Origin: Panorpa germanica
Lineage: Eukaryota; Arthropoda; Insecta; Mecoptera; Panorpidae
Direction of reading: 5' to 3'
Assembly (NCBI GenBank): GCA_963678705.1
Contig: OY783209.1
Location: forward strand, 9,610,001 to 9,674,000
Length of the DNA: 64,000 bases
The notes under the pieces are model-generated. The model was not told the origin of the DNA. It made no database searches and saw only the letters and a program-made list of their open reading frames with translations. Below are positions 9,401 through 50,200 of this stretch, piece by piece. Every line of letters begins with the position of its first letter. Position 1 is the first letter of the stretch. The position numbers and the translations under genes were made by a program.

Positions 9401-12400
9401 CTGAAACGTAAACAAACATAAATACTATATAAGCAACGCTCAATCTCAATCTTTTTCGTGAATTTGCTGACTTAAACTCTCTTTATCCTAAATTATAATA
9501 AAAGAATTTTTATAAATTAATCAATTGTTATTTAAAAGGAGTATGCCTAGTAAAAAGATCACGTGATGTTTTTTCGTAGTGTGGTGCGCCTATACATGAA
9601 ATGCCCACTAATAAGCTTAAAAAATTATTTACTTCTTCAAGTTAAGTAGCTTTAAAATATTTTTACGTGACGTTTAATCCTTTTGTAAGCTAATTATTTA
9701 AATCTTAAGATTATTAATCTCCGCAAATATTAAGCCTTGTGTAATAATCTTAGGATAAGATCACTGGAAATTGCAATTCAGAATAATCAAAACAGGATTT
9801 AAATAACCCAGTAAACATTTTGGAGTAAATTCTACTTAATTTCTATTTTAATTTTCTTTTTAGAGTCTGCAAAATATAAATATTTAAATGAAGAAATAAA
9901 TAGATGTAATCTTTAGTACGGATCGTGATTTCTTTAATGAATATTATTCATCTTCAACAATACTCGTTATATTAGTTTTTTACATTGTTTTGGTGATTCA
10001 AAAATCCACGATCGGCAGGTCTGTGTTAGGTTTAAAACCTCTGTCTTACCATCGCTAGATACTATCTTCGTTTATATACATTATATTCGGGGATTGAGGG
10101 AGATAGCGTCTGTCTATTACCATTAAAGAAATATTTGTTGAAAAAGGATAGCATATACTTTAAACATACTGTACTGAACAAAATACTATACAAGTATACA
10201 AGTGTAACGGTGAAAAATATATTTTACTTGTCTAACCGCATCTGGTTTCTCTCTCACTTTGGAATAAATGAGATGAAAGTGAACTTAAAAAAAATATATC
10301 CATGTGGGAAAGAAACAGAAATACTTAATGAATGATGTTGGAAAAAGAAAGAATATTATTATGAAAATATTCTAACAACTAAGATAAAATCTGTGACAGG
10401 TAGAGAACTTGTAAAGCGTTAGAATAGAATTGTACGAGTGACTCGAACTTCGCCAAATAGGACACTTCACCAAATTGTTTACTGGGAAACCCAGATAAAA
10501 ACCTAGCTCACTTTACTCGTTAGAATGGGCTTATGTCCTCATTTAATAGTGATCGATTTTTCAATTGTTGATTAAAATTGATGTTAATAAATATATATTG
10601 TCGTGTTTATTTTATTAAGTATCTAAATGTTGTCGGAGATATAGCAATTAAAAGTTTGAATTGTAGTTTTAGCGCTAGAGATGGTCGACCATATTTGTAT
10701 GACGTGAAATGCATTTTATCGTCAGTTATTTGTTGAGTAGGTCAGTGCTGTGGTAATGTTTTGTAGCTGTTGGTAGTCGAAATAATCAAGTCAAGTCAAA
10801 AAATTTCTTGAAAGCTGTAAATAATATTTGATATATAAATACATATAGCAGAGATTTATGAGCTGTAAGGTTGGTAACCTGTAAACTTGTCAGAGTTTTG
10901 TCAAGAATATATCTCTTTTACACTCTCTTGTATAAAAGAGATAACAACTAGCGGTGGTGAGGCCACATGCATTTGAAATGTTGTACAAAATGACTTTTTT
11001 TAGTTGTTAATATCTCTTAACATATAAAGACATTAAAAAATAATTGAACATTTGAGGTTCTAGTAACCCACTTTATCAATATATAGTACAGTTTTATAGA
11101 AATTAAGACATAAGACACAAGCCCGAGTGAAGCCACTGATACTGACCTCTTTGTTGAAGTAGCAAAACAGCATAGCGACTAGGAACCCTTGCAAGCCATC
11201 CAGCGCATAGGCAAAGAAATAGTAGACCTGCTCCCCGGTACAGGAATCCGTGTTTGGTCGGACTGCAGTCAGCAGGAATGGAATGCCGAATAAGGGCATC
11301 AAAAACAGAGTAATGCGAGCTGTTCGTCTGAAAAAACGTCTAGGATATAGGTTTGAAACTTGAGTAGTAAAGATAATAACTTAAACTAATCCAAAGATTA
11401 TCTCTGATCCAAAGCAGTGACGGCTGTTGAGTTGGATACAGAAAAATAACAACACGTAGGCATTACAAGTACTAGATCATCTAGACCTGTGCCGCTTCAA
11501 CTTACTTCATATGAGCTGATTGAGAGTTCCTTCTTAACTTTGTCAATAACACCCAGATTATGTGACTCATGAGGACCGTGTTGATGAACAGCATCAGCAG
11601 ACGTGGTGCGTCATTGATCCATTGATAACCGTTGTCTTCGGCTACCACCCAACAGTGGACGTCGCTGTATTGTGAGACCACCACCGCCCAAGTTACTGCA
11701 GGAACGGTAGACACAACTGAAATGTAATACGCGTGTCATAATCTATTAGACCCATGTATCATACTGAGAAATCGGAGGCTACGACTGGCTCTGTCTGTTA
11801 CTCTATCAGTAGTCTTAATTCTGACTTTCGCAGTCTAATAATATGGCTTCTTTTTTTCAATAAACACCATTAGATTTTTAGGATTAGTGCCTTAAGGTGA
11901 AACGATGCTTGGCCATTTTTTCTCGCGAAATATAGATGGCGATACTATACAGCAGGTTAAATATTATCAAAAAAACAATGTTTTTTTATGTTTAAATCGT
12001 ATTATGTAAGTAATTATAAACGCGAATCAAAATCTACAGCTACAATTAGTTAGATGAATAACGTATCTACATTTTAAGCTTTCTTCCACTGACTTTTAAT
12101 GAGTCGGAACCGCAAAAATAAGTTTTGAAAATTAATATTGCTATATTTTCTAGTTAAATTCCAATTTTTATATTAATTTATATTTTTATGTTAAATTTAT
12201 TTTTATATTAATTATATTTTTATATTAAGACTACGATGGCGACAACATCAAATGTTAACTCTCCGTGCAAATGATTCAAACTTTGAATAAACTTATCTCG
12301 AGTACAAAACGGTCAATCGACTTTAAATTTTCATAATAATTAGCTAATGATATCCTTTATAATTGTACTAAAAATGTATAACATTCTACCTTGTAAGACT

Positions 12401-15400
12401 TTTGTATAGCTACCATAACCTAGAAAATATTACGTAAAAGGTAAACTCTGTTATGTTCTAGTTTTATTTAGGATTCCATTATTATTATTTTTAACACAGT
12501 AGTGACAATCCTCGAATGCCTAATAACATTAACAACAGATTCGCATAACATCGAAGTCATGTCCGACATTTGATATTGTTTAGTCTCAAGGAAGCACAAG
12601 CGTGTGTGGGCCGATATTTAGCGCGGCCACCGGTTTGATGCTATCATAAGGAAACCATGTGTACAATAAGATACCACTGTTATTGTTATTTACTTTACTT
12701 ACTCGCTCCAATAAGATATATAAGTTTCATGTTCGGTTCTTGTCGGAACACTGCAGCGATTAATTTGTGAAGGTATATTCCATCAATTAACATGAAGGTG
12801 AAGACGAAATTTGCGGCAAGGCGTTCGGAAAATGCTAATAGTTTACAGGGCCATTGATTTTGTGACATCACTGTTTCCGTATTTGATGTTAGCTCATCTA
12901 GAATAACCTGAAATTTGATATAGATTGTTAAGATTCAATATAAAAGGATTTGGGAGAGAGAGATACCACATTACTTAAGAGAAAAAAAACACAAAAAATT
13001 TAGATTTAGATTGGGAAACGAGGAGAAAGGAAACAGATACTGGGCAAATTGCGAGGAAAGAATGTGTAGAGTGTGCGGAACGGAGTTTGAAACACTGGAG
13101 CACATTAAGTTTTGTTGTCAGAAAAAAGTAATGAGCGAGAAGAATATTGTGTAGGGAAGCAGTGAAGGAAAGAGGTGGATGGCGGAAATAGAGAAAACGA
13201 ACGAGAAAAGAAAGTAACAAGAGGTGCGGAAGAATGTAGTGCCTAATGGCAAAAACATTACAATAAATAATAATCTCGTTACACGGTGGTTTCATGGGGA
13301 ACATGAAGAGAAGAAGAAGAAGCAGAAAGCACTTTTGGAAGTAGTAAAAGTCTAGAATAATTTAAGTTTAGTTTTAAGTTTGAATATAAGAATGAAATGT
13401 ATTCAGAAATATAATACTGTAGATTGTAAAGCCGAAAGGCACACAATTAATATATATAATAAAAATATAAAGAGTAATTGGCTTTAGCATTTTAGCGTAC
13501 TTGACAGGGCTGGTACTTATTTAAGTTTGACTGAGAATGGGATTGTGTCCTATGTCCTAATTTCTATAAAAGTGTACAATATATTGATAAAGTGGGTTAC
13601 TAGAACCTCAAATGTTCAATTATTTTTCAAAGACTCCTTATATGTTAAGAGATATTAACAATTAAAAAAGTCATTTTGTCTCTTTAATTATTAAAGGGAT
13701 TCAACGTTGTACACATTCCAAGTGTATGTGACATCACAATCCTTGTGTAAGTTTACCAACCTTACAGATCATAAATCACTGCTAGCTATATGTATTTATA
13801 TATCAAAATATCTAATATTATTTACAGCTATTTCAAGGAACAATAAAATTTCACTATTATGTCTGCCTTAGCAGGGTTAAATAAAATAAAACTTATTATT
13901 CTTTCATTTGACTTGATTATTTGACTACCAACAGCTACAGAACATTACCACAGCACTGGCCTACTCAACAAATAACTGACGTTAAAATGCATTTCACGTC
14001 ATACAAATATGGCCGACCATTTCTAGCGCTAAAACTACAATTCAAACTTTTAATTGCTATATCTCCGTCAACATTTAGATATTTAATAAAATAGACACGC
14101 CAATACACATTTATTTACATCAATTTCAATCAACAATTGAAATATCGACCACTAAAAAATGAGGACACAAGCCCATTGAAAACTACCGTTAGAATGGTAG
14201 TTGTACAAAATGGCAGCTATTAAAAGATGGCGGCATGTTACTGATATATTTATGGTATCTCCGTTTTGCAACTTAGAAAGTATTCATATCCCGATGAACA
14301 CAAAACATAGATATTACATCTAAATAATGAAATATTTAATCTAAAAACCTTAATTAATCTAAAATTTTAAGTGAAATTTTCTTTTAATTTATTTAACGTT
14401 GGCTTATTCCCGAAACTGAGTCATATCATCGGTAATATCATACTACGTTTTCAGTTTTTGCGTTCTCGGGGTCTCATATATGTGCACAACAAAGCTGCCT
14501 AATAAGTTTATGGTTATTTACGTGCATAATCAATTTAACTTGATAACCAAAAAAACCTAGAAAATATAACTCTCGACAACTGTGTCATCTTAAAATGTTT
14601 TAATCCTTAAAAATGTATTCTTAACACTTTCTATGAGTACGTTAATACGCAAAGAGGAAGATATATGTAAAAAAAGGTTGACCCCAGTAAACATTTGGTG
14701 AAGTGTTCCTTTTTGTGACGTTTCTATCACTATTTCACTTCAATTATAGTTCGCATCAACTTTATCTTCATTTGTATTCCGACAGGTGGAGTGGTTCCGC
14801 CATCTGTAGCCGATAAAACAGACATTTCATATGAACGATTAGAGAAACTGAACTATAAATGAACTCTTTCATGACAAAAAAATCATACGCATCTCTAATA
14901 TGATCTCAAAGTGACTCCAAAATGTTTACTGGGACAAAACGTTGTATATCAGGTAATATTATTTACGTAGCAGGTAACTTTGTTATCGTTTAGCGGGATT
15001 ATATTACATTATTCGTGTAATTACTGCTATATAGAAATAAAGTTTTTAATAAATAAAAAGAACAAATTGTAAACTAATGTTATTCAATCTTATCTGTAGT
15101 TTTTTGTCAAGTTTAACATGATGCAAGACGCCAGTTTTTACAGCAATACTTAGTTCAGATTGAGACTTGAGCAAGCTAACCCGTGATCCACATAATCTTA
15201 TAATAATCAAGATCATTTTCGAAAAATACATACAAGTTTTGATAGAACCTCTTATGACACAATTTTCCAGTCTGTGTTCATCAACGATCTTACTTTGGTA
15301 CTTCGAATGCGTCTTAAAGTTTTACGTTAAATGACTAAACAAATACAGTCCTTCTCATACTCACCACAGATTTAGTTATCAGCACCAAGCTGTTCCTGAT

Positions 15401-18400
15401 AACGATGGCGATCAACAGATTCCTATGTACGGCCACACGCATCACGCGCAATTTTCTGTAGTAGAAAAAGATAAAGATGGCCGGGACGCTGGCAGCGATG
15501 GATACAGACAGTGTGGTGATATGGAAGGTGTTCCTATCAAGAAGACGCGGCACTACGGAACATGTTGAGTAGTCTGTTTGAACGTCCCATGTTCCGTTAC
15601 GGAAGCATTGCTTGCTGCTGAAATCTGAAGAAGAAAAACGGCAATTATAGTAGCCCCATCAGACCCCTTAAGAAGGTAGCTTCCATAAAACAATCATAAA
15701 CACACAATGAAGATAAGACAGTCTGGATGCTTCTATTTCTATATTTTCACTGTAAAAATTAATTTTACTTATTTTTACCAGTATGATGATGTATGGAACA
15801 GAAATATGGGGGTGGAAGGAGCAAGAGAAGTTTGAAAGAATACAGGAGAGATACATTAAATGGATACTAGGGCTGGACAGGTGCACGCCAGGATACATGA
15901 TCATGGAGGAGATAAAAAGGGACAAGACAAGAATTAAAGCAGGTGAAAGAGCAATAAAATATGAGGAGAAAATGAGCAGTGCTGAAAGCAAAATTTTAAA
16001 GAAAATATGGGAGAAAAGAAGGGGGGTGGGCGAAAAAGAGAAAGGAGGCAGAGAGGAGAAGAGAAGGAGGCGCAAGTGTAAAGAGGAGCTAAGGAGAAGG
16101 GATAAGAAGATACAACAACAGGAAAGAATGGGAAAAATCGAGAAAAGCAATTACAATACAAGATATAAAAGGATTTGGGAAAGTAATATACCTCAGTTCA
16201 AGGTTTAGATTGGGAAATGAGGAGAAGGAAACAGATACTGGGAAAGTAGAGAGGAAAGAATGTGTAGAGTGTGCGGAACGGAGGACGAAACACTGGCGCA
16301 CATTAAGTTTGATTGTAAGGAAAAAGTAGGGAGTGAGATGAATATTGGGCAGCTCTTAAAAGGGGGCAATGAAAGGAACAGATGGATGGCTTAAATAATT
16401 AGAAGAAAGAAGGCTGAAGCTATTTAAATCCTTTTAAGGCAGAAGAATGTAATGCCGAAGGTGAAGGGAAGGGAGATAGAGAAAAAAACTAGGAAAGAGA
16501 AGGAATGGCAGAGTAGAAACAGGAGGGACAGTAGCAGGAGGAGCGAAGCAGTAGCAGTAGCAGTTTTGTTTTTATTTTTATAAGGAATTTTATATATTTA
16601 TTTTTTCGTTTGAAAAAAATGAGAATGTTTAGATTTAATAAGGATCAAAATTGAATTAAGCACAATGACATGTATATAACTGAGTTAAGCACAAGAATGT
16701 AGTGCCAAATGGCAAAAACATTAAAAATAAAATAATAATAATAATAATAATAATTTTACTTATGACAGATTGTAAGAATTTGATATTTTCCAGGGAATTC
16801 TTAATTATGATAGAGAGTTTAGATAGGATAAGACAATACCAATGAAAAGGAAAGAAGAGGAAAAAAAGAGATGAAAGATATACAAGAAGATACAAGGTCT
16901 ATAGATTGTGTAAAAGAACAGAGAAGCGTTGGAACATATGAGGAGAGAATGCGAATTTAGGAGACTATTTTGTAACTGCTTACAAAGGCCCATGTTCCCC
17001 AAAGCAACTTTTTTAAAGGCCTGTATTTACCAAACTAAGCTATGTAAGTTTACACAAATCTATCAGAAGACCTTAAATAAAGAGCAAAATGGATCCCATA
17101 CCTTGAAACTGGCATAAGTAGCCTAATGGCCTTGTGTCCTCATTTTTTAATGGTCGATTTTTCAATTGTTGATTGAAATTGATGTTAATAAATATGTATT
17201 AGCATGTCTATTTTATTAAATATCTAAAGGTTGACCGAGATATAGCAATTAAAAGTTTGAATTGTAGTTTTAGCGCCAGAAATAGTCGGCCATATTTGTA
17301 TGACGTGAAATGTATTTTAACGTCAGTTATTTGTTGAGTAGGTCAGTGCTGTGGTAATGTTTTGTAGCTGTTGGTAGTCAAATAATCAAGTCAAGTCAAA
17401 GAATAATAAGTTTTTACTTTATTTAATCCTGCTAAGGCAGACATAATATTGAAATTTTATTATTCTTTGAAATAGCTGTAAATAATATTTTGATATATAC
17501 GAGTAAATACATATAGCAGACAGTTATGAGCTGTAAGGTTTGTGATGTCACATGCATTTGGAATGTGTACAACGTTGAATCCCTTTAATAATTAAAGAGA
17601 CAAAATGACTTTTTTAATTGTTAATATCTCTTAATATATAAGGAGTTATTAAAAATAAGTGAATATTTGAGGTTCTAGTAACCCTCTTTATCAATATATA
17701 GTACACTTTTATAGAAATTAAGACATAGGACACAAGCCCATTTGTAAATTTTAGGGGTTTGAAAATTAGGTAAGCAGTTACAAAATATGTAGGTCACTTA
17801 GATTAGATAGTGATAAGAAGATAGGGGAATTGTTAGAATAATGCAAAGAAGGAAAGAGGTGTACGATACAGATACAAAGAAGAAAGAACGAGAAAGAATA
17901 AGAATAGGAGCGTTTAAAGGAAGCATACATGACAGAAAGAAAGGACAAGAATTAAAGAATGTAGAGATGACTTTAATTTAAGTTTAATTGAAGAAAGAGG
18001 CTAAATATAGATCAAAACAGTTTTAAGTTTGAATAAAGCGAAAAATGAAATGTTAATACTTACGGTGGCAACTGGGTAAGCGTCCAGAATATGCATGAGG
18101 AGAACAAACATGGTCAACAGTTTTTCCAGCAGATGCTGGTGGAAAACACGTCCATCCATCCCACGTAGCAGGACAATCACCTTCTAAAAGATACATTTAT
18201 AACCTCATTACATTAGTTCGTGTAAGTTATTTACAAATTGTTAATTATAAAGAGTCTCGAAAGCTAATTTAGACAATATATAGTTGCATCGTTACAAAAT
18301 AGGAGCAATGACGGTTACAAAAATTGACTAACCAAGTATTAGATAGTTTTAAAATGGTGCTCAATTAAAATTCACATAGGGATATAAATCATGGGAAAAT

Positions 18401-37250: not shown

Positions 37251-38284
37251 GTAAAAATTAGAAACATAATGGAACTTAAATTTCTTTTTCTTTACTAAAA
37301 TATAATAAACATATTTTTTTAGTAATGTTTTAAAGTTGTTGACATTCCAGTTGAATAAAATGTATGTGTTGTACATTAGCGCCATCTACTACAATTATAT
37401 ATTTAGCAAAGAATTGAACACAATAATATAGAAGTAACATAATCCATAAAGTGCAATTTTTTTTCAAGAAAAATAAAACAATTGACAATAAAAAATATAC
37501 AGCAATAAATATGTAAATGATTTACGCAATATTTTTTAAATTTTACTTCTTTTTGGAACAGTTGCAACAACTGAAATATATAATTAAAGTTTCTATACAT
37601 TTTTTATTTTTAATTACTTACTAAGGTTTTGATTTTATAAATCAAGATTTCTTTTGCATATTTTGGCACAATTTTTTTAAAATAATGTCGAAATATAGAT
37701 CATTGATAATGTCGCAAAAGGCCATCGCAGCATCAACTACTATCTTTTAATGATTATTAGTCTCTGTTAATGATTATAGATAAGAATTTATTCAATAAGG
37801 AGTGGGGGTTCTCTATAAAACTGAAGGAATTATCCGTTTTAAGTAATATTCAACAGTTATATCTTGTGCAAGACAGTTTTACATTTAAACTATTATTTAA
37901 AAGTATTTATTTAAAAAATTCTTCACATATTCTTTGAAAGTGTTTAAAAAGTTTTTGATATCAAATTTAATTGCGAATTAACATTTTAATTTTAATATTT
38001 CTTAACTAAACGGTAAATTAAAGTATATTAATTAAATTTATTTAATACATATGTTATTTGATGTTATTGTTTACTTAGTTTGCAGTTTGTGAGATTATTC
38101 ATATCTTCCATTTATGATGAAATATTTTTTTATTGAACATCACAACTATTTCAAAAAATATTATTTAAATATAACATATGTCATATGTTAAGTTCATTAC
38201 AAAATATATTTTGTTTATTATAAATGCAAATACTATTTATTTATTTTTAAGTTCTCCGCTAAAGATAAAATGGTGCGTAGTTAA
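37251..38284. other. AT-rich DNA upstream of the synthetase
   Basis: No gene seen. Confidence 0.5.
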
Positions 38285-38290
38285 CAATAA

Positions 38291-38370
38291 CCAATCATTT
38301 TCAAGGTACTAGTCACGTGACCTGAAACCAAGTCTATAAATAGCAGCGAAACCCGGAGAAGAGGTCTCTT
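38291..38370 (+). promoter_or_regulatory. Core promoter of S-adenosylmethionine synthetase
   Basis: TATAAATA lies at 38335-38342, 90 bases before the start codon, with a pyrimidine-rich GTCTCTTTTCC about 30 bases downstream where transcription would start. Upstream are an E-box CACGTG (38314-38319) and a CCAAT motif (38291-38295). The arrangement is that of a focused TATA promoter. The factor that binds the E-box is not knowable from sequence. Confidence 0.65.
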
Positions 38371-38430
38371 TTCCACAGTAAATCGTTCAGGGAGTACTGC
38401 TTATTAAAATCAGTGCTCAAAAGGTTCAGA

Positions 38431-41400
38431 ATGCCGCAGACTTCGCAAATGAATGGCTATGCCAATGGCCACAATACTGCTTATGAAATGGAGGACGGAT
38501 CTGTATTTTTATTTACATCTGAATCTGTTGGAGAAGGCCATCCAGGTAAAGTTTTTATTATATTATAATTTATCAATATCGTTGGCTTTAATAATGGCGG
38601 TCGTATTAGCATGTGCGCAGAACCATTTATTATGGATTTTAGGGGTTTGCGAAATTAAATATATATTATTATTTACACATAAACAATAAATATGCTATGT
38701 AAAACAATGTAGTTTTTATAGATATGTTTCCTTTTTTTCAAATGTTCGTACTTTCATAAATGTATCTCTTATTGTATATTAAGAACACGTGCTAATTTTT
38801 GTTATACATATTGTTGCATCATATTGATTAAATTATTTTTAGTTGGTTATTTAATCAAACACTCTTACTTAGATACATTAAAATGCTTAAATTTTATTTG
38901 ACCTATTTTCTTATGTTTTTTTTTCAGACAAAATGTGTGATCAAATCAGTGACGCCATTCTTGACGCTCATTTGAAGCAGGATCCCAATGCTAAAGTTGC
39001 TTGTGGTGAGTTATTTTTGTAACATGTTTTTTCTATTAACCTTTTAAATTACGCTCTTGACACTGTCATGGCATTGTGCTTCAATTATATTGTTTTCGAG
39101 AAAGCATGCTGAATAAGTATTTTAAATATATGTATTAAATGTTGCAGAAACTGTTGCCAAGACAGGTATGATCTTGTTATGCGGTGAGATAACCTCAAAA
39201 GCTGTAGTGGATTACCAAAAAGTTGTTCGTGATACCGTGGCTCATATTGGCTACGATGACTCTTCAAAAGGTTAGTGTTTTTTAATGATTATATTAGATT
39301 TGCTAAATAGTTGGTTTCTTTATCTTTTAAATGTTGTGTTACACTCTGTTAATTGCATTATGAGTAGTCCACAAACTTCTTTTTTTTGTGTGTTTCGATT
39401 TATAAATGATCAAAATTAAATTCTACCTAACCTAAAACTCCTCGCTACCCCAATATCATAGGCTTTGACTGGCGGACTCTAAATCTTCTGGTCGCTATCG
39501 AGCAACAGAGTCCAAACATTGCAGGAGGCGTACATTTAGACAGGGAAGAAATTGATATAGGTGCTGGGGATCAGGTATATCTAAAATTTTTATGATGCTA
39601 ATTTTCGCGCAAATGGTCTGCGTCATTGTTATTTGTCCTGGTTCGTTAGCATCATATCCACAAATTTATTTTATATCATTTTAATCCGGGTATACTCATG
39701 ATTATAAAAAAGAAACCTTTCCTTAATTACTAACGGTGAATACACGAAAACTCATACATGTGGGACTACATTTGCATGTATTCTCTGAAACTAAATTTTT
39801 TTAATTTATATAATTGCTTACTTCAACAATATATTAAATTATATCCACATGTTATAAATTAGTCATAGCAGCTGTTAAAATATTAGCGTTTTTTACTTGC
39901 AAAATTCATTTATTTAAATATACAAAGTTTATTTTTGAAATTACAATTTTTGGCACTTTATTATATGAATAAACGTGTTGCTTATCCTAATATTTTAACA
40001 AATACATATATAGCATTTGAGATAAGGTATCAATAGAATGGTTATTAAAATATGTCCTTGATTTCACTGACTTTTTTATCTTTCGTATAAAAAAATAATG
40101 AATTTGTCTTTTTTTACTACGTATTAAATTTAAAAAGAATAATGACTGCATCTAATTGAAACACTTCTGTTTACATATGTATTTAATGTAAAATTGCAAG
40201 AGATTACTTAGATACATTAATTTAAAAAAAAAAACTTACGAATCAAGCCGGTTTCACCTCAACAAATTAAGGAAAATCTATAGAAATATGAGGCTGCGGT
40301 TAAAATTATATTATATATATGCTTGTCTTTTAGTTCGAAGTATATTGCATGATATTTGTAAACTAACTTTTTCTACTAGCTGTAAAACTTACCCATAATT
40401 GCAATTTATTTGTAGAATATTAGCCATATACAGACTGCCATGGAGGTGGTAGTTTTAGTGTAGTGTCTTTTGGTGTTCTTTTCATAAAAATGTTACGTCC
40501 GTTTTGCACTTCTTTTTGATCTATCTGAACACGACCTTATCTTTATCAATAAAACTTAACATTCGCAAGACAATTTAATTTACAATAGAAAATAAAAATA
40601 ATTTTGTGAATAATAAGTGAAGACGAAGAAAAAAAGTGCAAAACGAGTACATTTTTTGTTGAATCAAAAACGACATATGTTAAATAAATGTTTTGAGCGA
40701 TTATTCGTTGGGTGTCCACAGGATCTGGATTTTAACAAAAATACAAATGTTATTTATTTTTTGCAATAGGTTTCGACTACAAGATCTGCAATGTGTTACT
40801 AGCTCTTGATCAGCAGTCTCCGAATATTGCGGCTGGTGTGCATGAAAACAGACCTGAAGAAGAAGTGGGCGCCGGAGATCAGGTGATCTAGAATGCCCGC
40901 TGTTATTAATTTCTCAGTAGTGCAATCTGTACATCTGCTGTCTTCTGGCCTTACTCTTACTTTGGTTTTTTTTACTCTACATCAATAATGTTTTTAAAAA
41001 CTCTTGCTTAAAATTTTCTTTTCAATGCATATTTGAAAAATAATAATTGTTATCTCCTATTATTAAGCTTTTAAAAACAATATTGATGTTTAGTATACAA
41101 AATTTGTTTATTTAGTTTGTTTTTGGTGGAGGTGCTCTAAAATTTTTCTTTTTGTAGTACAAGATGCTGCAGCAGAGCTGTGTATATTTTGCAGGCGAAT
41201 TTTTGTTTTAATCTTTTAATTATTATTTAATATTTCTCATTTTATTTTTAAAATCATCATTTTCAAGGCATTGATTACCGAACCCTTTGCGTGGTGCAGT
41301 GCATAGGAGAACAAAGTCCTGATATAAGTTCAGGCATAGAAGCAAATATTTCTGATAATATTGGTGCTGGTGATCAGGTAGTTTTGATTGTTGGTTTAAA

Positions 41401-43037
41401 AAACAATTCTGTGCACTACACCATGCATTCCATTAACAAATATTAATCTCCTTAAACTTAATTCATAACTTTTCAAAACATTGAAAAATCTATTAACAAG
41501 TTCTTTTCGTTTATTTTCTTTAAAAACATTTAAACACATCATATTTTTCGTTTTGTTTGTTACAGCTTTTGCTTGCTGCTTTATCTTTTAAATAATTAAC
41601 TTATCTATTATAGTAACAGTATTTTAAGTATTTCTAAAATAATAGTTAAATTAATATATAGTGTTATAGTCTCACTGTTTCAATCTCTTCGTTTTTTTTG
41701 TGTTGATTGTAGTATTTTTTGTAGTTTAAAAATAGCCATAACAATGAAGCATTCTTTTACACAGGGTCTTATGTTTGGATACGCCACTGATGAAACCGAT
41801 GAGTGCATGCCCCTCACCGTTGTCTTGGCACATAAACTTAATCAGCGTATAGCTGAACTCCGCAGATCTGGTGAATTTTGGTGGGCGCGTCCTGATTCGA
41901 AAACACAGGTAAAGAATTTCAATAATATATATCAGCATTAATTTAACGACAATGATGTTATATGTTGTATTTGCTACTCTTGAAAGGTGTGATGATAACT
42001 TATTGCTGAGTGTTTCATTTTAATGAATTCATTTTAAAAGTTTTTATTTGATTCTAATATTGTTGTTTTTTTTCTACAGGTCACGTGTGAATATTTATTT
42101 GAACATGGTGCTTGCGTACCCCAGAGGGTTCACACTGTCGTTGTCTCTATGCAACACAGCGATAAAATTGATCTGGAAGAATTACGATCACAGGTTTTAG
42201 AGAAAGTTATTAAAGATGTCATTCCTGCACGTTACTTAGACAACAACACAATCGTTCACATCAATCCTTGCGGATTATTCATTATCGGTGGACCACAGGT
42301 AACAATTATTATATGCATTTATTATTTATGTAATTATAAATATTTATTATTAAAATATTTAACTTATTTTTATATTATTCACATTTTAAATGTATGTTTT
42401 ATTATATTTTTAGGGGGATGCCGGTCTCACTGGTCGTAAGATAATTGTAGATACATATGGTGGTTGGGGTGCCCATGGTGGTGGAGCTTTCTCCGGCAAA
42501 GATTTCACCAAAGTAGACAGATCTGCTGCATACGCTGCACGATGGGTTGCAAAGTCTCTTGTCAAGGCTGGACTATGCAGACGTTGTTTAGTGCAGGTCT
42601 CCTACGCCATTGGTGTAGCTGAACCATTATCTATAACTGTGTTTGATTATGGAACATCTAAAAGATCACAAAAAGAATTATTAGCCATAGTTAAGAAGAA
42701 CTTCGACCTACGACCTGGCAAAATTGTGAAGTAAGTGTTATTTAATTTCGTTCTCCTTCTCTTTCATTTATGTCATCTCGTTTATAATATCTTATTTATC
42801 TTCCATAGCTTATTACAATTCAAAAATACTTAACAAATCTTTTCAATCTTCCTTAGTTTAAAACTAATTAACCAGATCTTCTTCCCTATCTATATTAGTA
42901 ATTAATGTTTATATTTGTCTTTCTTTATTTTTAGGGATTTAAATCTGCGCACTCCAATTTATCAAAGCACCAGCACATACGGTCATTTTGGGCGCGATGG
43001 TTTCACATGGGAAACGCCCAAATCTTTGGTTGAATGA
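38431..43037 (+). CDS. Sam-S: S-adenosylmethionine synthetase, with three alternative exons 4
   Basis: It makes S-adenosylmethionine from methionine and ATP in the cytosol. Exons: 38431-38545, 38928-39005, 39148-39270, one of 39462-39574 / 40770-40882 / 41268-41377, then 41765-41908, 42080-42298, 42414-42730, 42935-43037. The reading phase fits at every junction. With 4a or 4b the protein is 403 residues, with 4c 402, the usual insect length. Visible family motifs are [19 protein letters not shown] near residue 30, the ATP-site [15 protein letters not shown] (signature 1) across exons 4 and 5, and the glycine-rich GGGAFSGKD (signature 2) in exon 7. The start at 38431 follows a TATA promoter. 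Broken copies of exon 6 lie downstream. Confidence 0.98.
39462..39574 (+). CDS. Sam-S: Synthetase exon 4a
   Basis: Encodes [20 protein letters not shown] then [17 protein letters not shown], closest to the animal consensus over the active-site loop. At 113 nt (phase 1 to 0), using two versions together, or none, would shift the frame. Confidence 0.93.
40770..40882 (+). CDS. Sam-S: Synthetase exon 4b (alternative to 4a)
   Basis: Same length and phase as 4a, with good splice sites (TTTTGCAATAG and GTGATC). Encodes [20 protein letters not shown] then [17 protein letters not shown]. The key [10 protein letters not shown] and GAGDQ residues are kept, while other positions differ strongly from 4a. 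It should give an active enzyme with a different loop. Confidence 0.92.
41268..41377 (+). CDS. Sam-S: Synthetase exon 4c (diverged third version)
   Basis: 110 nt, same phases, acceptor TTTTCAAG, donor GTAGTT. Encodes [20 protein letters not shown] then [16 protein letters not shown]. It is one residue shorter, with the usual GVH replaced by GIE, but QSPDI and IGAGDQ remain and no stop or frameshift is present. Its splice sites look weaker than those of 4a and 4b, so use may be rare or tissue-limited. Confidence 0.85.
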
Positions 43038-44187
43038 TATAAAATTCCTTTGATAAATAAGCTCTAATTTTAAGTATGATTTTTATTACTATATACATAG
43101 ATGTAACTTTTTAAAAATGGTTTTAATATTTAGCGTAATATCATAAAGTAATTAATTATAGCAACTAATCGAATCCGAAGTCTAGTATATTCAAGAAACG
43201 AGTATTCTGAACCTTTGAGCAGGATATGTGATTGCAACAAAATATCGTTGGCATTTTTTTTTATTGCATACTCCTGTATCATGACATATAGAAATGGGGT
43301 AACGCTGTGGATGGGGATAGCAAAGCTGCCAACTTTTACGGATCACAGTGGGCTAAGCGCCTTCTGCAAACCTTGTGTGCAGGGTGGAAGTTATATTTGG
43401 CATATTATAAAAATTATTTTACAATTTGCTAACTATGTGATGGTTACTTAAATTACTAGCATTCTAAATGAAATATATTATTTAGAATGTTAGCTTACTG
43501 TTTATTTTTAAATCGTAATATTTTTCCGCATGTTTATAACAAATAACAGTATAAATTTAAGTATTGAATGAGTAAATGTTTTTAAGTAACAAAATATTTT
43601 TTTAAATGTTACTTCTAAATGTTATGAATAGACTTCCATTCCACACGCTTTGTGTTGTGTTTACGAAAAGGAATCTAAGTGGGAAAAGAGCCATTCCGAA
43701 AACACTCCGATCCGTAAGTTGTGCAGACACACCTACGGCATTTACCTGAAAATTAAACAATATAGGCAAATCACCATTCTTGCCTCGTTAATTCAAATCT
43801 GTGACATAATTGGCCGACAATTGACAAGCTGCCGTATAATTAGTAATAATATTCACTTATCTTTTTTTATTTTAAAAGTTTTGAAAAAATATTTGTAAGT
43901 GAAATAAAATATAGCATTGTATTGTAGTAATTAGTTTTAATGTAGGTAATACATGTGACGTTATGTGGTTAAAAATAGGTAATAATTTTGTGTATGCTTT
44001 GCTGTTCCCTTTTTGATTTAAGTTTGTAATCTTTATGTATTATTAAAATGTATACAACAAGATATTTTCTTTTTTTTTAATTCATAAGACAGCTTAACTC
44101 ACTGACTACATCTACTTCTGACTGACTATTTTTAAGATATAAAAAATCTTAACAAAAAAGGTTCTCCCTAAAATACAAAATGATGTA
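43038..44187 (+). other. Synthetase 3' untranslated region and flank
   Basis: Follows the TGA at 43035-43037. Candidate poly(A) signals are at about 43901 (GAAATAAAATATAGC) and around 44040. The end GATTTAAGTTTGTA (44016-44029) recurs at 46304-46317 after the exon-6 array, so the array was built from sequence that included the gene's 3' end. Open frames here are not genes. Confidence 0.6.
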
Positions 44188-46370
44188 CTGATGTGGAGCA
44201 CGTCCTGATTCGAATATCCAAGTACGTATCTTAATATATTCCAATATCAATTTAAAGACAATGATGTTACATTTTGTATTTGCTACTACTGAAAGGTGTG
44301 ATGTTGTCTTAGTAGTGAGTGTTTAGTTTTTATTGATTGATTTTAAACTTTCCAGTTTATTTGATATTAATAGTATTTTACTTTACTACAGGTTACACGC
44401 GAAAACTTCTTTGGACGACTTTTAGATGCCTCACGGGGTACATCTGTTCTATCTGTGCAATACAATAAGAAAATTGATTGTTTGGAAAGCTATACAAGAA
44501 TTCTCCTCCTGCCCGTATTTGAACAATACATCTTGATTCGAACATACAAGTACGTATCTTAATATATTTCAATATTAATTTAAAGACAATGATGTTAAAT
44601 TTTGTATTTGCTACTACTGAAAGGTGTGATGTTGTTTTAGTTACTGAGTATTTAGTTTTTATTGATTGATTTTAAAGTTTCTAGTTTATTAGGTTTTAAT
44701 AGTACTTTACTTTTATACAGGTTACATGCAAAAACTTATTTGGACGACCCTTGAGTGCCTCTTTGAGTACATCTGTTCTATCTGTGTAATACAATAAGAA
44801 AATTAATTTCAAAATTATTCAAGAATTCGAACATCTTGGTACGTATCTTTATATATTTCAATATTAATTTAACGACAATGATGTTAAATTTTGTATTTGC
44901 TACTACTGAAAGGTGTGATGTTGTTTTAGTTACTGAGTATTTAGTTTTCATTAATTGATTTTAAAGTTTCTAGTTTATTAGGTTTTAATAATACTTTACT
45001 TTTATACAGGTTACATGCAAAAACTTATTTGGACGACCCTTGAGTGCCTCTCTGAGTACATCTGTTCTATCTGTGTAATACAATAAGAAAATTAATTTCA
45101 AAATTATTCAAGAATTCGAACATCTTGGTACGTATCTTTATATATTTCAATATTAATTTAACGACAATGATGTTAAATTTTGTATTTGCTACTACTGAAA
45201 GGTGTGATGTTGTTTTAGTTACTGAGTATTTAGTTTTCATTAATTGATTTTAAAGTTTCTAGTTTATTAGGTTTTAATAATACTTTACTTTTATACAGGT
45301 TACATGCAAAAACTTATTTGGACGACTCTTGGATGCCTCACTGAGTACACCTGTTCTATCTGTGTAATACAATAAGAAAATTAATTGGAAAGTTATTCAA
45401 GAATTCGAACATCTCGGTACGTATCTTTATATATTTCACCATTAATTTAACGGCAATGATGTTATATTTTGTATTTGCTACTCATGAAAGGTGTGATGAT
45501 AACTTACTGCTGAGTGTTTCATTTTTATGAATTCATTTTAAAAGTTGTTTTTATTTGATTCTAATATAGTTTTTTTTTTCTACAGGTTACATGTGAATAT
45601 TTGTTTGAACATGTGCTTGCGTACCTCAGAAGGTTCACACTGTCGTTGTCTCTATGCAACACAGCGATAAAATTGATCTGGAAGAATTACGATCACAGAT
45701 TTTAGAGAAAGTTATTAAAGTTGTCATACCTGCACGTTATTTGCTACCACCACCAAGATCTGTACCGATAGCGGCTTCAGGCAGTCTCACGACGAGATCC
45801 TGCGCGCACCGTCGCGATCCTCCTACTCATTGAGGCTTTATAATAATTATAACAAAAGTTATAAATACTTAACTTGCCCTAACGACTGAGTACAGGCATA
45901 ACGCTTCAGCGCCATCCATTTTCAGGGCTAGAATCTTTTCCTGCACGTATTTGGACAACATGACTTTATTGGACCATCCAAGTACGTATCTCAATATATT
46001 GCAATATTCATTTAAATACAATGATGTTATAATTTGTATTTGCTACTACTGAAAGGTGTGATGTTGTTTTAGTTACTGAGTATTTAGTTTTTATTGATTG
46101 ATTTTAAACCTTCCAGTTTATTAGGTTTTAATAGTACTTTACTTTTATACAGGTTACATACAAAAACTTATTTGGACCAGCCTTGGATGTCTGACTGGGT
46201 ACATCTGTTCTATCTGTGCAATACAATGAGAAAATTTATTGATTGGAAAGTTATTCCAAACTGCATATGCTTAATGCTTAATTATTGATTTTTTTGTTCC
46301 TTTTTTGATTTAAGTTTGTATACCTTTGTGTATTAATAAATGTAATACAAGAAATTTCTTATCTTTCATT
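44188..46370 (+). pseudogene. Tandem array of six broken synthetase exon-6 copies
   Basis: Each unit carries the end of exon 5 or its intron (AAAGGTGTGATG, CGACAATGATGTTA), a 3' splice site (TACAG) and a worn start of exon 6. Exon-6-like starts lie at 44392, 44721, 45010, 45299, 45586 and 46153. The three at 44721, 45010 and 45299 are exactly 289 bp apart and nearly identical. The copy at 45586-45748 is far closer to the real exon 6 but has a 1-base deletion early and stops after about 163 of 219 bases. None can code for the enzyme. About 45749-45930 is an inserted unrelated piece. Confidence 0.9.
45749..45930 (+). repeat. Inserted GC-richer segment inside the array
   Basis: Breaks the fifth exon-6 copy. 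It contains GATCCTCCTACTCATTGAGG (45819-45838), shared with about 22540-22559, and GCGCCATCCATTTTC. Probably a piece of a dispersed repeat. Confidence 0.5.
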
Positions 46371-47200
46371 TTTAATTCATACGGCATTGTGATCATAAAT
46401 ACTTGTATACAGCCTATAAAGAATCTTAACAAATGCGTCGTTATGAGAGCAAAAAAAAAATGAGGCTGTGACTAAAAATTTAAATTGAATTGAATTGCTT
46501 TGAACTGAACAGCTTTCAAATAAAATAGTATTTTTAAAACTTTAGTAAGAAACCGTATCAAAATTGTTCATAAGATAAGTTAATTAATTTAATTTGTTTA
46601 TAATTTTTAATTCTATTAATTTACTTTTGTAAGTTGCGCCTTCTAATATCTGTGGCGCCATCTTCATATACAAAGAGTTTTTAGTATTGCCCTCTACATT
46701 TTTTAATTGGTATTTATCTTTATTAATAATTTTGTTATTGACATCTACTTCATCCTGCATAACAAATTAAATTATTGTACAAAAACATGTCAATCTGTTA
46801 ATAATTTTATAACATTTTTAATTAAATAAAAAATTCAAAATTAATTTACCATATAAGGTTGTTTAAAAAGATAATTCAAAATTTAATTAAAACAATCAAA
46901 ATCTAACTATAAAAGTAATTACTAAATTTTTGTAGTTGTTCAATAAGTCAATAATTTGTTACATAAATAAATATTTGTTTGCATTTATCATCAAGGCAAA
47001 GAATCAAAAAAATATATATATTCAAAATAGAAAATATAAAGTGTTTCATGTAGATGAAGAGTTTTGTGGAGATGTAGGATTAGATCTATATGAATTTCAA
47101 GGAAGCTAGATTTTTCTAGAATATTTGTTTTATTCTGTTGTAATAACTGCTTACAATATATTTTTATGGGGTATATTGTGAACGGAAATACATCCTAATT
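46371..47200. other. Herc4 5' flank, no gene seen
   Basis: AT-rich. It must hold the Herc4 promoter and leader. No TATA element is convincing. Confidence 0.45.
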
Positions 47201-50200
47201 ATGTACTGCTGGGGAAACACTGTCAACGGAGAGTTAGGACTTGGCGGAATTGAAGAAGAGCAGGTTATAATTTGCCCTATTTTAAGTTTAATAATCTAAC
47301 TTCCATACACTAAGCTTTGCAAATACTGGTAAAAATTGTATATAGCATGTAAATAATATGTCAATAATATATCGCTTTTTTAAAGTAATAATCTTAATTT
47401 AAGAGTACTTTATTCAAGGAGGATGCTATATTTTTACTAGGTTCATAATCCGAAACTTTTGACTTGGAGTCAGGCTAAGGATGTCATACTTGCAGCTTGT
47501 GGTTACAACCACACATTGTTGCTTACGGCAGGCGGCAGTGTTTTTTCCTGCGGAAGTAATGATTATGGTCAACTAGGGCATGATCAACCACGAAAAAGGC
47601 CACGTATGTCATTATTTAGTATGTGTGTTTTCAACTTCTGCTAGGAAATGTTTTGATTATTTTTATTTTAAAGTAAAATTTGTATGTTTTATTCTACAGA
47701 GCTTGTGTCGTCATTAGATGCCTTCGTTATAAAGCAAATATCTTGTGGATCTGCACATTCTGTAGCAATAAGCGAATGGGGCCAACTATTTACTTGGGGC
47801 TCAGATTCACATGGACAATTAGGCTTGGCAATAGAACAACCTTTTCAACCGACACCAAAGATTGTGAAAGGCTTAGCGTTGAAACATGTCATACAAATAA
47901 GCTGCGGACAAAATCACACCATGGCACTTACAAATAGTATGCTTAAATTCTTTATAGATATTTTATACTTAAAAAACAAATAATAGATATTAAATATATT
48001 TTCTCCCGCTCTTACACAAATAGATGGAGAATTATACACCTGGGGTTCAAATAATTATGGTCAATTAGGTTTGGGATATACGTCCGAAAAGCAAAATACA
48101 ATATCATTAGTTAAAAGCTTAGCTGGAATACCAATAGCATTTCTTGCGTGTGGTGGAAATCATAGTTTTGCTGTAACCAGGTAATTTAAGTTTATGTTTA
48201 ATATATCATTAGGGAATAATGAGAACATGAAATATAGTATATATTTTTAGATCTGGTGCAGTTTTCGGTTGGGGAAAGAACACGTCTGGTCAGCTAGGAT
48301 TAAATGATGAACAAAATCGATCGTTTCCATCACACTTGAAAACATTGAGAAATATACGCATATCTCACATTGCTTGTGGAGAAGATTTTACTGTTTTTCT
48401 TACTTTAGACGGAGGAGTATTGACCTGTGGTGATGGAGCTTGTGGCCAACTGGGACATGGAGTAACAACGAATGAAGTTCTGCCAAAAAAAGTAATGATA
48501 TTCACGATATCAAAAAGTTATTATAACATTTTTTTATATTTTAACTGTACGTTTTAAAAATATAGATCATGGAGCTAATGGGAAGTACAATTACGCAAAT
48601 TTCTTGTGGTCGCCGACACACAGTTGTTTTAGTTTCATCCCGCGGACGAATTTACGGTTTTGGTTTAGGTGGTTCAGGACAACTAGGTGCACGGGTTTTA
48701 AGAAGTGTTAGCACTCCTCAAATTGTAATGGGGCCATGGGTATCGCCTAATGGGTCGCCAAATACAAAGATTAAAGTGAAGGTTTATTTTAATTATCTAC
48801 TTTTAATAGTCTATATATATGTATCATAACACATTTTTATAATAGCAGGATATAAACATTCGAAGAATCTTTTCTGGAGGAAATCATTGTTTTGCATCTA
48901 TATGTGATAATCCAGATCAAGTTGAAGACGATCGACTGCCACAACATTCACAACAAATTCTATCTATAACCTCTGAAATTGTAGAAAAATTTAAAAATGT
49001 GCCTAAAGATGCAGCTCTTGACAATGTAAGACTATAAAAATAATTTACTCATAAGCATAAAATCTAAATATTGTTTTAAATACAGGTAATAGTTTGCTTA
49101 AGAGTAACCTAATAACATTTAGTCTAAAAAGATTTTATTTTTGCCAAAAATCAATACGTAACACACTTAATTTTTTAAAAAGTTTAATGATTCTATTAAT
49201 TGGCAAAAGTTAGATTTATTTTATGATGTACATTAGGTAACATATTTTATTTTTTACATTATGATTTTTTATGTTACTATATTTGGTGGGTAGTACATAC
49301 TAGTAATCGCTAGTAATCTAATACATAAATGTATATTTATTTACAGGAAACTATAACTAATATTGAAACAGTGTTTAGAAGTCAAGCTTGTATCAATTCG
49401 TCTTTTCTGTTACAAAATTTTGAACATTATTGTTGCTCATCGCGGCATCCTGGAGTGGATATTGAAGGGGCCACGGGTATATTTGAAATAATAGCTTGCC
49501 TACAAAACGATAGGATTAAAGAATTTGTATGTATTGTAGTTAACATAGGTTCGACAAGATTTTGTGTTTTATACCATATTAAACAATTAACTGTTACAGA
49601 TATTCGAATCCATAACAAACGATGTAATTCCTTCATTATCTTGTAACCCTCCAGATGTTGAAACACTTCGTGTATATTTAACGTTACCTTTGTATCACGA
49701 ATTTTGTAACGCAAAACGTTATAAGCTTCTGCATATTCCATTTGGACGAGCTGTGTTAAGCTTGACCAAAAATCCACAACGAATAGTACTGCAGTGGTGG
49801 GCTGCACAAGGAACGCAATACGTTGAAAGATTAATTACTGTTTACAAAGAAGTTGTTGTCTATATCTTAAATAAAGAGTCTATTAAAGAATGTTCAACTC
49901 CGAAACGTGTATGTTAAAGGATATTTTATTTTAATTACTTTAAAATTATATTATAATTATTATATATTTTTTTAAAGCCTTTACCTAGAGACGCTCATAT
50001 GCATAATGCATTAGATGTTTTAGCACGATTAAACAAAATAAAACGGGATAATCCAAGAATGTCAATTCCACATAGTCTGTTTCATATGCCAGATCTTTGT
50101 GAACAATTTGATATACAAGCAGATTACTTACATTGGATGCATGACACTCCGGTAATTATTTTCATCTATGTGAATGAATTTATATTACATAAATTCTCTC

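Follow-up and report, generated by a model that had tools for sequence, protein, structure and literature searches.

Background

S-adenosylmethionine is the main methyl donor of the cell and feeds nearly all methylation. In mammals, two genes (MAT1A and MAT2A) together with a regulatory subunit provide enzymes of different behaviour. The gating loop of human MAT2A comprises residues 113-131 (PMC6850014). The abstract of a study of loop mutants describes several residues at which activity was partly or totally lost, and one passage of the same source states that mutation of Ser114 abolishes activity and that mutation of Gln113 hardly alters it (PMC6850014). In Drosophila melanogaster, RNA-seq data for the S-adenosylmethionine synthetase gene Sam-S were scored as mutually exclusive exon use, with a reported inclusion of variant A of 0.36 with sertraline and 0.10 in controls (PMC11765297). 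A different form of splicing control has been described in Caenorhabditis elegans, where METT-10 blocks the sams-3 3' splice site by placing an m6A mark at UACAG|AAAC, a sequence that lies in a stem-loop; sams splice sites of the fly and the silk moth are reported to bear the motif and to be methylated in vitro (PMC8208822).

We examined a 64 kb stretch of the Panorpa germanica genome (positions 9610001-9674000 of its contig, hereafter the window), and used the 464 Mb assembly of 249 contigs for genome-wide searches. An initial annotation of this DNA had proposed that three interchangeable exons encode the active-site loop of an S-adenosylmethionine synthetase, that the choice among them must be exclusive, and that use of two versions is known in flies. 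The last point is borne out in print by the mutually exclusive exons of Drosophila Sam-S, and the two-version arrangement is therefore already known (PMC11765297).

Results

The window contains a complete S-adenosylmethionine synthetase gene of the Sam-S/MAT2A type on the plus strand (38431-43037), with eight coding exon positions and GT-AG introns throughout. Coding exon 1 (38431..38545) opens with the ATG start codon at 38431 and is followed by coding exon 2 (38928..39005) and coding exon 3 (39148..39270), which serves as the shared upstream partner of three versions of the fourth exon. These are exon 4a (39462..39574, 113 nt), exon 4b (40770..40882, 113 nt) and the diverged exon 4c (41268..41377, 110 nt, one codon shorter), encoding versions a, b and c of the gating loop. 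Coding exon 5 (41765..41908) is the shared downstream partner and starts with GLMFGY after the GAGDQ that ends each version; coding exons 6 (42080..42298), 7 (42414..42730) and 8 (42935..43037, with the stop codon TGA) complete the gene, all on the same strand. The three S-AdoMet_synt Pfam domains (PF00438, PF02772 and PF02773) score above cut-off in all three isoforms. The N-domain score of the 4c isoform is 142.9 against 149.7, a change of -6.8 bits, and the middle domain loses nothing. The best solved relative of the gene product is human MAT2A, at 660 bits.

The exon boundaries given in the initial annotation are exact, with AG before and GT after each version. All three versions share an entry phase of 1 and an exit phase of 0, and their open frames encode 38, 38 and 37 residues, each with GAGDQ at the end; the description of 4c as one residue shorter and carrying GIE where the others have GVH is also correct. 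An open frame of 37 codons is by itself weak evidence (P ~0.05 at local composition). The likeness among the versions is beyond chance because the 4a peptide, searched against the 64 kb window, recovers 4b at an E-value of 9e-14 and 4c at 6e-7. The next-best hits of the 4a, 4b and 4c peptides elsewhere in the window have E-values of 0.53, 0.20 and 3.7, and therefore no fourth copy of the exon is visible among the best 12 hits per peptide. In phases, lengths and homology, the three versions form a tandem cluster of homologous exons between common flanking exons, separated by introns of 1195 nt (4a-4b) and 385 nt (4b-4c) as calculated from the coordinates.

The proposal that the reading frame demands an exclusive choice also holds, as only splicing of a single version gives a full-length protein. 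With one exon 4 placed between exons 1-3 and exons 5-8, the isoforms comprise 403 (4a), 403 (4b) and 402 (4c) amino acids. If exon 4 is omitted, the first stop falls at codon 114; it falls at codon 154 or 156 in the three possible pairs and at codon 154 when all three versions are included.

When the 4c isoform was used to search the genome, nine matches were obtained among the best candidates scored, all on this contig and at window positions 38431-45743. They correspond to the exons of Sam-S and one partial copy of exon 6 adjoining the gene; within the same search no second S-adenosylmethionine synthetase gene was found, and the nine matches include no retrocopies or processed copies that would record splicing. 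Downstream of Sam-S (44193-46177), intron 5 and the start of exon 6 recur as six partial copies, arranged in tandem or nearly so, with a unit of ~289-329 nt. Five of these are 74-77% identical to their source; the remaining one, fifth in the series (45429-45742), shows 93% identity and extends further into exon 6. A genome search with one such unit gave seven matches, all at the Sam-S locus.

The surrounding sequence contains further genes. Directly downstream on the plus strand is an RCC1-repeat gene (47672-48554), which we take to be HERC-like, and on the minus strand at 11063-15658 open frames matching 7tm_2 (secretin-family receptor) represent parts of a gene for a peptide hormone receptor. 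Between 38000 and 46600 there were no Rfam matches at the gathering cut-off. Neither (TTAGG)7 nor (TCAGG)6 occurs in the whole assembly, and the usual arthropod telomere repeat is thus not seen there.

The assignment of exon 4 to the gating loop, made in the initial annotation from the sequence motif, agrees with the human enzyme: the encoded block corresponds to residues 98-135 of human MAT2A, and the whole published loop (113-131) lies inside it (PMC6850014). Identity to the human block is 29/38 for 4a, 28/38 for 4b and 17/37 for 4c; 4c thus differs from human MAT2A at 20 of the 37 aligned residues and is missing one. The loop was also compared with 27 MAT sequences from outside the window, comprising the human sequence, five bacterial loci and 21 loci from viral contigs, with 26 of 31 loci retained. 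Q113, S114, I117, G120 and GAGDQ occur in all three versions, and each of these positions is shared by at least 26 of the 27 sequences in the family set, although 'invariant' is somewhat overstated because many of the 27 are related viral copies. P115 is likewise kept in 4a, 4b and 4c.

The reduced conservation of 4c could indicate that 4a and 4b form a working mutually exclusive pair and that 4c is an old duplicate which is decaying or is spliced as noise only. In line with such decay, neither the donor nor the acceptor of 4c is strong: in a ranking of nine donors by a simple matrix, those of 4a and 4c were the two weakest (6.1 and 6.7), and 4c has AAG as its acceptor. Neutrality of 4c was also not rejected by a three-branch codon model, in comparison with one in which 4c was free (lnL -387.26 vs -386.21, twice the difference ~2.1). 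Silent sites are near saturation, which accounts for this outcome, and the optimiser was rough, giving a worse fit with w of 4c fixed at 0.5 than at 1. Against decay stand the open frame of 4c, its single in-frame length change, and its intact GT-AG boundaries and phases. The pattern of substitution argues in the same direction. Over the 22 loop positions common to 4a, 4b and human, 4c is altered at none of nine family-invariant positions and at 10 of the 13 others (Fisher p 4e-4); since GAGDQ adjoins the donor, its conservation may serve splicing in part, and with GAGDQ left out the counts are 0/4 and 10/13 (p 0.015). In neutral simulations at equal divergence, the nine residues together with an open frame survived once in 6000 runs started from 4a and once in 6000 started from 4b, and an open frame alone was retained in 32% and 29% of runs, respectively. 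The retention of all nine residues and its rarity under neutrality make 4c look like a selected coding exon, and we conclude that it has probably been under selection as coding sequence through most of its history; its decay we regard as improbable, if deserving of serious consideration. As to the origin of 4c, the three topologies of 4a, 4b, 4c and human were not separable (AU p 0.59, 0.51 and 0.30). R5, L7 and I13 are common to 4c and 4a against 4b and human, N27 is common to 4c and 4b, and D19 is common to 4c and human, with N at this position in 4a and 4b. A search for insect relatives with which to date 4c yielded none from viral contigs with exon 6, and the genome contigs gave five bacterial loci.

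The manner in which a single version might be chosen was considered from the intron sequences. The 4a-4b and 4b-4c introns are presumably too long for simple steric exclusion, and none of the gene's donors resembles the minor-spliceosome type. Competing intron RNA pairings between docker and selector elements, as in other insect exon clusters, could set the choice. One element of higher GC content (41155-41200) has its best pairing with 41520-41619, where 1.0% of background windows and 0.3% of GC-matched windows are equally strong, and it also pairs with 40400-40499 (1.3% of background windows equally strong). The single-copy 4b-4c intron further contains a plus-strand hairpin (40966..41102) with 37-nt arms that are 84% complementary (z -5.1), which a window-wide scan places as only moderately unusual (residual z -2.1). 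However, nine regions were tried, the pairing directly downstream of 4a, 4b and 4c ranks at 13%, 3% and 56%, and among 5053 duplexes the strongest, at -24.5 kcal/mol, falls within the range of the best from eight shuffled sets (-20.9 to -27.2). A hairpin at 40500/40645 in the 4a-4b intron (z -4.8 vs shuffles) is part of a dispersed, transposon-like repeat on the plus strand (40464..40684) with 39 further scored genome copies among 97 candidates, at 68-84% identity. We consider control by such pairings doubtful. Very unlikely, in our view, is that the main role of the cluster is to regulate the amount of enzyme, as in METT-10/METTL16 control, with mis-choice at plentiful S-adenosylmethionine yielding frameshifted RNA and less enzyme. 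Such a switch would suit the observation that every wrong combination of exon 4 versions shifts the frame, the precedents in worm, fly and silk moth (PMC8208822), and the presence in the genome of a METTL16-family gene (PF05971, contig C13). Along the coding strand of Sam-S a single sequence differs at just one position from the METT-10/METTL16 motif UACAGAAAC, namely TGCAG|AAAC in DNA or UGCAG|AAAC in RNA (39143..39151, plus strand). It coincides with the exon 3 acceptor and has CAG|AAAC in common with the worm sams-3 site (PMC8208822). Yet about three one-mismatch motifs are expected on that strand by chance alone, the exact motif (UACAGAAAC/UACAGARAA) is absent from 38001-46500, none of the acceptors of 4a, 4b and 4c fits it, and the exon 3 acceptor, folded in two cuts around the site, does no better than shuffled sequence (z 0.11 and -0.11), with no convincing stem-loop. 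As a METTL16-type regulated 3' splice site the exon 3 acceptor was rejected, its motif being imperfect and the site unstructured, and the METTL16 findings are kept as a lead and not counted as support.

Two further features of the intron and window sequence were recorded. Soon after the 4a donor, a hairpin at 39591-39656 has an unbroken 12-bp stem (z -2.3) and could shape the use of 4a. Over both strands of the window, one-mismatch TACAGARAM motifs number 115 against 88.8 expected (sd 8.3; maximum of 100 shuffles 112), a slight excess.

Discussion

The reading that we prefer, with a probability of about two in three judged from the genomic sequence, is that two tandem duplications in the Sam-S gene of P. 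germanica have multiplied the exon encoding the active-site lid, and that each mature mRNA would contain exactly one of 4a, 4b and 4c. All three versions would be used in RNA, and transcripts that lack exon 4 or carry two or three copies of it would be destroyed or would yield truncated protein. The versions may alter opening and closing of the lid and the release of product, with the catalytic Q113, S114 and GAGDQ unchanged. As the most divergent lid, 4c is perhaps confined to a few tissues or stages. A stronger proposal, which we advance only tentatively, is that 4c represents a third lid, either ancient or specific to the lineage, with clearly different kinetics or product release in a special tissue or stage, by which one gene would give three enzyme types through a change of lid alone.

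If the preferred reading is correct, P. germanica may vary the behaviour of this enzyme through a splicing swap of one 38-residue lid. A scaffold that occurs naturally with three lids would also permit a direct test of the effect of the gating loop on rate and product inhibition.

The three lids are a variant of a known arrangement, the mutually exclusive exons of Sam-S. The alternative exon of the Drosophila gene is, we assume, the gating-loop exon. No report of a third version of the Sam-S exon was found in the open-licence literature, and the possibly new part of the present locus is this third, faster-changing version, 4c. Where human MAT2A has one loop and D. melanogaster Sam-S has two reported variants (PMC11765297), the P. 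germanica gene has three alternative loops. Synthesis of S-adenosylmethionine is likewise controlled by splicing of the synthetase in C. elegans (sams-3) and mammals (MAT2A), but the METT-10/METTL16 mechanism retains an intron or shifts a splice site, whereas in P. germanica loop exons would be swapped (PMC8208822). Dscam, Mhc, U2AF1 and OGDH likewise use tandem exon copies of equal phase for one exchangeable protein segment; these are other genes, and the case in P. germanica concerns the active-site lid of a housekeeping enzyme.
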